Virus record (IMG/VR): IMGVR_UViG_3300042463_001353 | Span: 1-33,976 of that record | Length of the DNA stretch: 33,976 nucleotides | DNA from: a virus | Reading direction: 5' to 3' (one strand) | Shown: positions 21,270 through 29,999 of the stretch, piece by piece | Layout of the letters: each line of letters begins with the position of its first letter | Position numbering within the stretch: the stretch's first letter is position 1 | The notes under the pieces: generated by a model | What the model was told of the DNA's origin: nothing | Database searches by the model: none | Seen by the model: only the letters and a program-made list of their open reading frames with translations | Position numbers and translations under genes: made by a program

Positions 21270-21864
21270 CGTTGAGCAATTTGATGTGGGTGATTGCTTC
21301 GCCGATTTTCTGAAGGTCGAATGACCGGCAGGATTGGATGTAGTTCGGGGAGAATTGCCGCCCCTCGTCGGTTTCTTCGACGATCTCCAGCAGCGTGATG
21401 ATGGTGTCGGTGTGGCGCCGGTATGCTTCCAACTTGGCTTTGAGCTGGCGGCAGACGCTCGACACCCGGCAGGCATGGGTGATGCAGTTGTTGCGTTCCT
21501 CATAGACGGATGCGACCGCCTCGTCATAAACCGATGAGTCATTGTCGTGGTCCGCCGACATGAATGGATTGTCGTCGTGCGGCCACTTCGACTTCCGGCG
21601 GTATAAACCGTTTCGCACATACTGCTCTTGAAAGTTGGCGAGGTAGATCGTCTCCCACTTGTCGTTTCCCACATAAACCTCGTCACCGTCTTGCAGGCGC
21701 TCGCCGCTACGCAGCATGCGGCCATACTCAGGCTTCCACTCAATGCCCTTCGGGTGCCATTCTTCCGGTTCGGTGGTTTCCTTTTTGCGAAACGCTGCCT
21801 CATAGTTGTCGCGGTAGGCATCGCCGTCCACCGGCCTCGGGGTGTCTCCTTTACCTGCGCTCAC
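21259..21864 (-). CDS. Hypothetical early protein with Arg/Glu-rich helical region
   Basis: The protein has 201 residues. The N-terminus MSAGKGDTPRPVDGDAYRDN is of a type common in small phage proteins, followed by KGIEWKPEYGRMLRSGERL and a helical C-terminal half (CRQLKAKLEAYRRHTDTII). It has a Cys/His pair (NNCITHACRVSSVC) that could bind metal. It is in an ATGA-coupled series and has a good Shine-Dalgarno (AAAGGAGG) inside the upstream gene end. Function unknown. Confidence 0.6.
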   Translation of the reverse strand: MSAGKGDTPRPVDGDAYRDNYEAAFRKKETTEPEEWHPKGIEWKPEYGRMLRSGERLQDGDEVYVGNDKWETIYLANFQEQYVRNGLYRRKSKWPHDDNPFMSADHDNDSSVYDEAVASVYEERNNCITHACRVSSVCRQLKAKLEAYRRHTDTIITLLEIVEETDEGRQFSPNYIQSCRSFDLQKIGEAITHIKLLNDET

Positions 21865-29039: not shown

Positions 29040-29237
29040 TTAATAGACCAGTGCGCGGGGTTGTTTCTTTTTGGCTCGGGCCTTGAGGGTTGCCATGACA
29101 TCGGCAAGGTCGAATCGCGTGATCGATCGCTCGGCGACGACCGGCGTAATGACTCCTTCCCGCGTCCAGCGGTAGATGGTGTGCTTGGTGACGCCGAGTT
29201 GTTCGGCAAGTGCTTGTGGGGTCAGTTTCATTTTCAA
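29040..29237 (-). CDS. MerR/excisionase-like HTH protein
   Basis: The protein has 65 residues. MKMKLTPQALAEQLGVTKHT and IYRWTREGVITPV form a helix-turn-helix with a wing, the pattern of MerR/AlpA-type and Xis-type small proteins. Then FDLADVMATLKARAKKKQPR follows. It overlaps the RHH repressor gene by ATGA. In temperate phages such proteins next to the switch are often excisionases; attP is less than 1 kb away. An activator is the main alternative. Confidence 0.72.
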   Translation of the reverse strand: MKMKLTPQALAEQLGVTKHTIYRWTREGVITPVVAERSITRFDLADVMATLKARAKKKQPRALVY

Positions 29238-29437
29238 TTATGGATGAGTGTTTTGTCAGCGGCCTTGGAGAGATGGTAGCGAGCAAATGCGCTGATCGTG
29301 CGCTCTTGGTGTGAGGCTGCTTTTTTCAGTCTCTCCTTCATCTCGCTTGAGAGCTTGACGCCAAGAAATGCTGTGCTTGAATCGGAAACTTTATTCCCTG
29401 TTTGGGAGGTAGTCGTTTTTGCTTTTGCGTGTGGCAT
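29234..29437 (-). CDS. Ribbon-helix-helix (Arc/MetJ-type) regulator, leftward
   Basis: The protein has 67 residues. A disordered Thr/Ser N-terminus is followed by AFLGVKLSSEMKERLKKAAS and HQERTISAFARYHLSKAAD, the beta-strand plus two helices of RHH domains. It is similar over the whole domain to the divergent RHH gene (LLGVSLPKALKERIRKAAAR). The ATG at 29437 is where transcription from the promoter at 29444-29472 would start, so the mRNA may be leaderless. It is first in the early operon, in the place of Cro or CI. Confidence 0.82.
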   Translation of the reverse strand: MPHAKAKTTTSQTGNKVSDSSTAFLGVKLSSEMKERLKKAASHQERTISAFARYHLSKAADKTLIHN

Positions 29438-29484: not shown

Positions 29485-29503
29485 AAAAAAAAAAAAAAAA
29501 AAA
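29485..29503. other. 19-base A-tract between the divergent RHH genes
   Basis: Nineteen consecutive A on the plus strand, upstream of both divergent genes. It could act as an UP-type or bent-DNA element. Homopolymers of this length also tend to vary in sequencing. Confidence 0.6.
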
Positions 29504-29540: not shown

Positions 29541-29732
29541 ATGTCAGCACCCAAAAAGCCGAAAGACCGCTCGCCGGATCAGACGCTCCTGGGCGTTTCA
29601 TTGCCCAAAGCCCTTAAGGAACGCATCCGAAAGGCGGCGGCTCGTGAAAATCGCACCATGGCGAACTGGTCTGCGCATCACCTTGGACTGGTGATCGAGC
29701 AGATCGAGGCCGAGATGAAATCGAAGAAGTAA
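29541..29732 (+). CDS. Ribbon-helix-helix regulator, rightward
   Basis: The protein has 63 residues, one of only two plus-strand genes. A basic N-terminus (MSAPKKPKDRSPDQ) is followed by TLLGVSLPKALKERIRKAAA and ENRTMANWSAHHLGLVIEQI, an RHH fold paralogous to the leftward gene at about 45% identity by eye over the domain. The ATG is close to a TGTTGTAAAT extended -10-like sequence (29524-29533). Divergent paralogous RHH genes around a palindromic operator suggest a lysogeny switch. Confidence 0.8.
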   Translation: MSAPKKPKDRSPDQTLLGVSLPKALKERIRKAAARENRTMANWSAHHLGLVIEQIEAEMKSKK

Positions 29733-29744
29733 GGTCGGCCATTT

Positions 29745-29804
29745 ACTGCCCAAATACTTTTTCGCGTTTGGGCAGTATTTTCGCGTTTGGGCAGGATTGG
29801 GCAG
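29745..29804. repeat. Left cluster of TTGGGCAG repeats (integrase arm-type sites)
   Basis: Inverted CTGCCCAAA at 29746-29754, TTTGGGCAG at 29767-29775 and 29786-29794, and ATTGGGCAG at 29796-29804. The first pair (ACTGCCCAAA / TTTGGGCAGT, 12-base gap) could also form a hairpin after the rightward RHH gene. TCGCG precedes two copies. Confidence 0.65.
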
Positions 29805-29829: not shown

Positions 29830-29927
29830 CCTAGGTTTTTTTCTCTAGGTAAATCATTCGTAATGTGCAGGCCGAGAGTTCGAATCTCTCCAGCGGCTCC
29901 AGTTTTCTAGGTGTTTCCTAGGTTTTT
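29830..29927. repeat. CTAGGT repeats framing the tRNA-like core
   Basis: CCTAGGTTTTT occurs at 29830-29840 and 29917-29927; TCTAGGT occurs at 29844-29850 and 29906-29912. Two copies lie on each side of the tRNA-derived core. They may bind integrase or excisionase. Confidence 0.6.
29857..29901 (+). other. attP core: 3' half of tRNA-Thr(CGT), anticodon loop to CCA
   Basis: The loop TTCGTAA carries anticodon CGT. Then come anticodon-stem half TGTGC, variable loop AGGCC, T-arm GAGAG-TTCGAAT-CTCTC, acceptor half CAGCGGC, discriminator T and CCA. No 5' half (expected to end in GCACA, with GCCGCTG at its start) is found upstream. So this is a remnant that would restore a host tRNA gene on integration: an attachment site next to the integrase gene, not a functional tRNA gene. 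Confidence 0.85.
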
Positions 29928-29979: not shown

Positions 29980-29999
29980 ATTGGGCAGCTATTGGGCAG
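29980..29999. repeat. Right pair of TTGGGCAG repeats before the integrase gene
   Basis: ATTGGGCAG at 29980-29988 and 29991-29999, 11 bases apart, in the same orientation as the left cluster. They lie 20-40 bases upstream of the integrase ATG, so integrase binding could also repress its own gene. Confidence 0.65.

Follow-up and report, generated by a model that had tools for sequence, protein, structure and literature searches.

The locus upstream of the integrase gene

We analysed a window of 33,976 nucleotides, the full length of IMG/VR virus record IMGVR_UViG_3300042463_001353, which is a linear record of a tailed phage. Our subject is a 45-nucleotide segment of this window, followed after 117 bp by a tyrosine integrase gene. 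The segment corresponds to the 3' half of a threonine transfer RNA (tRNA) gene, tRNA-Thr(CGU), and is read here as the common core of a phage attachment site (attP; Table 1). A sequence-only reading had described these bases as the last half of the tRNA, and all parts are as it claimed. The anticodon CGT (29859-29861) stands in its loop and is followed by one strand of the anticodon stem (TGTGC, 29864-29868), a variable loop (AGGCC, 29869-29873), the T-arm, the acceptor strand (CAGCGGC, 29891-29897), T73 (29898) and CCA (29899-29901), so that the core is a tRNA 3' segment running from the anticodon loop to the 3' end.

We simulated 2000 windows with a first-order Markov model and scanned both strands. 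A perfect T-arm with a correctly placed CCA arose in 2 cases (about 0.001 expected per window), and a T-arm, CCA and anticodon loop at the right distance in none of the 2000. A chance origin of the tail is excluded. In viral contigs, ARAGORN called nine intact tRNA-Thr(CGT) genes whose loop and acceptor are identical to those of the window (GCCGCTG...TTCGTAA...CAGCGGC), which fixes both the isotype and the position of the segment within the tRNA. Position 73 is A in eight of these genes and T, like the window, in the ninth (L026).

The absence of a 5' half, also part of the sequence-only reading, was borne out. The Rfam tRNA model had no match in the window, and a search of the window for GCCGCTGTAGCTCA gave a single match with 2 mismatches, 5 kb away on the opposite strand and at chance level, so the upstream 5' half that would have told against the reading did not appear. 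ARAGORN called no tRNA at 29857-29901. It did call a 96-nt tRNA-Glu at 21336-21431, which we set aside as probably false because it had no Rfam match and was uncalled in relatives covering part of that region.

Table 1. Features of the attachment region and neighbouring genes (window coordinates)
Feature	Position	Strand	Basis and remarks
attP common core, tRNA-Thr(CGU) 3' half from anticodon-loop position 32 to CCA	29857..29901	+	Direct reading, relatives, simulation
Anticodon loop TTCGTAA, 7 bp, predicted overlap for strand exchange	29857..29863	+	Cleavage sites predicted
T-arm GAGAG-TTCGAAT-CTCTC	29874..29890	+	Stem covaries across 5 phage tail versions and one intact tRNA
Left (P) arm, probable arm-type integrase sites	29746..29804	+	TTGGGCAG at 29768, 29787, 29797; CTGCCCAA (inverted) at 29746
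Right (P') arm, probable arm-type integrase sites	29981..29999	+	TTGGGCAG at 29981, 29992
CTAGGT on both sides of the core, perhaps additional protein-binding sites	29831..29923	+	Copies at 29831, 29845 (left), 29907, 29918 (right)
Tyrosine integrase, 361 amino acids	30019..31104	+	PHROG 1 integrase, E 1.9e-18; Pfam Phage_integrase marginally below cut-off
Small HTH_17/MerR-like protein, candidate directionality factor (excisionase)	29040..29237	-	Role inferred from size, fold, position

The core is flanked on both sides by repeats, five direct copies of TTGGGCAG and one inverted copy; elsewhere in the 34 kb there is just one further plus-strand copy and one further inverted copy. In six relatives (L003, L005, L013, L022, L025 and L027) other motifs recur at near-equal offsets (about -70 and -58 on the left, about +100 to +115 on the right), and the att site of L010 has no clear repeat. 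Motifs that change at near-constant offsets have the look expected of arm-type sites changing together with their integrase, which would presumably bind them. Closer in, CTAGGT has five plus-strand copies in the window, four of which lie around the core.

Related phages and versions of the tRNA tail

Relatives were collected from viral contigs by scans using the tail and the integrase as queries. The tail was found directly upstream of the integrase gene at about 15 distinct sites, with integrases 46-97% identical to that of the window. Although the flanks differ widely, identity among these sites always starts at TTCGTAATG, the first anticodon-loop base (position 32). This left edge, together with the att repeats of Akkermansia phages, which begin at the same tRNA position, is the basis on which we predict the overlap region. 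The right edge is less uniform, as T73 is followed by GCG in L013:2480-2524, by TTG in L014:6288-6332 and by CCT in L017:269-313 and L025:6884-6928. Because L013 and L014 lack CCA, the conserved block stops at T73; an extent from loop to CCA, as first proposed, describes the window itself but not the block that the relatives share. Tails of this kind suggest that some hosts of the CCA-less phages may have no encoded CCA in this tRNA gene.

Five versions of the phage tail can be distinguished: A (the window, L004/L006, L002/L011 and L005), A2 (L003/L008), B (L007, L010, L012, L013 and others), C (L025) and D (L027). Across these and the intact tRNA of L026, 100% of the T-stem cells are paired, with double-sided changes in three of the five pairs, and neither any of 500 shuffles nor any slid pairing reached the observed paired percentage or covariation score. 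This pairing and covariation indicate that the phage tails have been kept able to serve as tRNA, which is what would be expected if they complete a host gene upon integration. Searching with a profile built from the integrase alignment returned mostly known loci and distant integrases. Among plasmids, the other tail version had just two 88% matches, in actinobacterial plasmids.

The probable attachment site and competing explanations

Very probably, the segment 29740-30010 serves as attP for a temperate tailed phage of about 34 kb, with the 3' half of a host tRNA-Thr(CGU) gene as its core and standard anticodon-loop integration. The anatomy of the site, its recurrence in relatives, the covariation of the T-stem and the internal position of the tail support this directly. 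The attP proposed in the sequence-only reading, with phage genes on both sides, is upheld by the adjacent tyrosine integrase, the flanking repeats, the roughly 15 relatives, the T-stem and the internal position; the integrase lies on one side and other phage genes on the other.

The internal position comes from four relatives (L007, L009, L010 and L012) in which the right-end sequence of the window is followed by its left-end sequence, with a gap of about 150 bp in L009. Because these relatives bridge the window ends, the genome is nearly complete and either circular or permuted, and the tail lies inside it, as in an attP and not a prophage end. This bears on the explanation that fares best among those we rejected, namely that the segment is the right or left attachment site of a prophage (attR or attL), or belongs to a tandem pair of elements. 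A lone tRNA 3' fragment without a 5' half would also resemble an attR. However, the integrase lies to one side and phage genes to the other, arm repeats stand on both sides, and relatives are continuous through the site as well as across the window ends, so this alternative is already largely refuted and we regard it as very unlikely.

Still less probable is that the tail has nothing to do with integration and is what is left of a phage tRNA gene, decayed or independently acquired. That phages carry tRNA genes is established (PMC10865867), but this tail is always immediately upstream of the integrase gene and always cut at anticodon-loop position 32, and the core has been kept over integrase identities of 46-97% with its T-stem still paired. 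Least probable of all is tRNA-dependent lysogeny as in mycobacteriophage Fionnbharth, in which integration at the same tRNA region, the anticodon loop, disrupts the tRNA and the loss is made good by a tRNA that the phage carries; such systems combine a short core of about 10 bp with a phage tRNA of the same isotype, whereas the core here is 45 bp and ARAGORN and Rfam found no phage tRNA-Thr in the window.

Under the attP reading, the integrase would bind the tandem repeats of both arms and the core, and strands would be exchanged with the host tRNA gene across the 7-bp anticodon loop. The integrated tRNA gene would then consist of the host 5' half and the phage 3' half and remain functional, and the displaced host 3' half would mark the opposite prophage end.

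Several observations weigh against this reading. The integrase has the conserved residues R, K, DxxRH, GH and RHY, and thus keeps the catalytic R, K, R, H and Y, but the box II catalytic His (HxxR) is replaced by Asp (DxxR) in every aligned member of the integrase group. Neither the exact 45-mer nor a 25-mer (T-arm and acceptor) had a match in the GTDB representatives, in which each species has a single genome. Neither a copy integrated between host flanks nor a junction of prophage and host came to light; the nine intact tRNA-Thr genes with GCCGCTG in viral contigs included none with a phage tail, and hence no integrated copy.

The arrangement is of a classic, already known type of tRNA-targeting attP, to which this phage adds a further case. 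Bacterial attachment sites (attB) in the anticodon loop are reportedly a classic target of bacterial and archaeal tyrosine integrases, as Campbell and, in 2002, Williams are said to have described. In such sites the 7-bp loop is the overlap and the palindromic anticodon stem supplies the inverted core-type sites (PMC8371274); we see no categorical difference between them and the window. In mycobacteriophage Boilgate, which integrates at attB-4 (tRNA-Lys), attP has a 43-bp core with a tRNA 3' half. Exchange takes place at its left end, a functional tRNA stands at attL, and the core differs from the host tRNA at five bases (PMC10865867). More generally, cores of 30-45 bp that hold a tRNA 3' half restore the tRNA at one of the junctions (PMC10865867). 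Boilgate and the window are alike in core layout and differ in host phylum, tRNA and integrase.

Between the candidate excisionase gene and attP are two small ribbon-helix-helix-like genes on opposite strands (29234-29437 and 29541-29732), with a run of 19 A between them (29485-29503). The minus strand carries the terminase, portal, protease and tape measure genes.

Probable host and possible exchange of the tRNA half

Among 50,697 phage records, the integrase matched three Akkermansia phages only (28-34% identity), and the best TerL match was Akkermansia phage Moulinsart (35%). Chambord, Chantilly and Moulinsart (ON453894-ON453896) are prophages of A. muciniphila YL44 whose induction has been reported (PMC10197239). 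Each has a tRNA 3' half next to int and again at the other prophage end (L040:1-54, L041:1-45 and L042:1-45; record ends L047-L049). It begins with the first base of the anticodon loop, and from sequence we identified the three as tRNA-Leu(TAA), tRNA-Asn(GTT) and tRNA-Met(CAT), respectively. They resemble the window in their related integrase, in a tRNA-3'-half core upstream of int and in genome size, and differ from it in their tRNAs, in their distant proteins and in their gut origin. Because the integrase and terminase matches fall on Akkermansia phages with tRNA 3' halves, a host in the Verrucomicrobiota is likely and is our best inference.

Two sister phages differ in the tail itself. Between L006:5850-5894 and L007:253-297 the flanks are identical for 67 nt to the left and 32 nt to the right of the core, but 9 of the 45 core positions differ, all inside 24 bp, and three T-stem pairs with compensating changes are among them (Fisher p 0.0006, with windows picked after the data were seen). 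The tail version of L007 is common to far more distant phages, and on the integrase tree version A requires at least two changes and version B three. Exchange between phages, or with a tRNA copy of the host, would explain this pattern. The window also encodes RecT and a YqaJ-type exonuclease, and recombination by these proteins is a plausible agent. Caution is needed, as the flanks may stay conserved through integrase binding and the genomes are mosaic. We therefore propose only tentatively, and with somewhat more doubt than conviction, that the tRNA half is an exchangeable cassette: members of a single lineage may acquire T-arms of different versions (A for the window, B for L007), and on lysogeny the phage version would take the place of the 3' half in the tRNA-Thr gene of the host, so that phages would move tRNA halves among host populations. 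The exchangeable T-arm is the sole part of this analysis that may surprise a specialist.

With this site, the integration target of an uncultured phage group is identified, and its host can be sought through a tRNA-Thr-CGU with acceptor GCCGCUG/CAGCGGC and U73. If the prediction is true, the host tRNA-Thr(CGU) gene would end in TTCGTAATGTGCAGGCCGAGAGTTCGAATCTCTCCAGCGGCT and would have GCACA at positions 27-31 as the partner of TGTGC, whereas tails with TGAGC would call for GCTCA. The search with all 45 bases that was first suggested is less suitable because T-arm versions differ between close phages, and the host is better sought by the anticodon loop and acceptor. The several tail versions, set in attP flanks that are nearly identical, offer a natural record of phage tails following, or rewriting, host tRNA genes.
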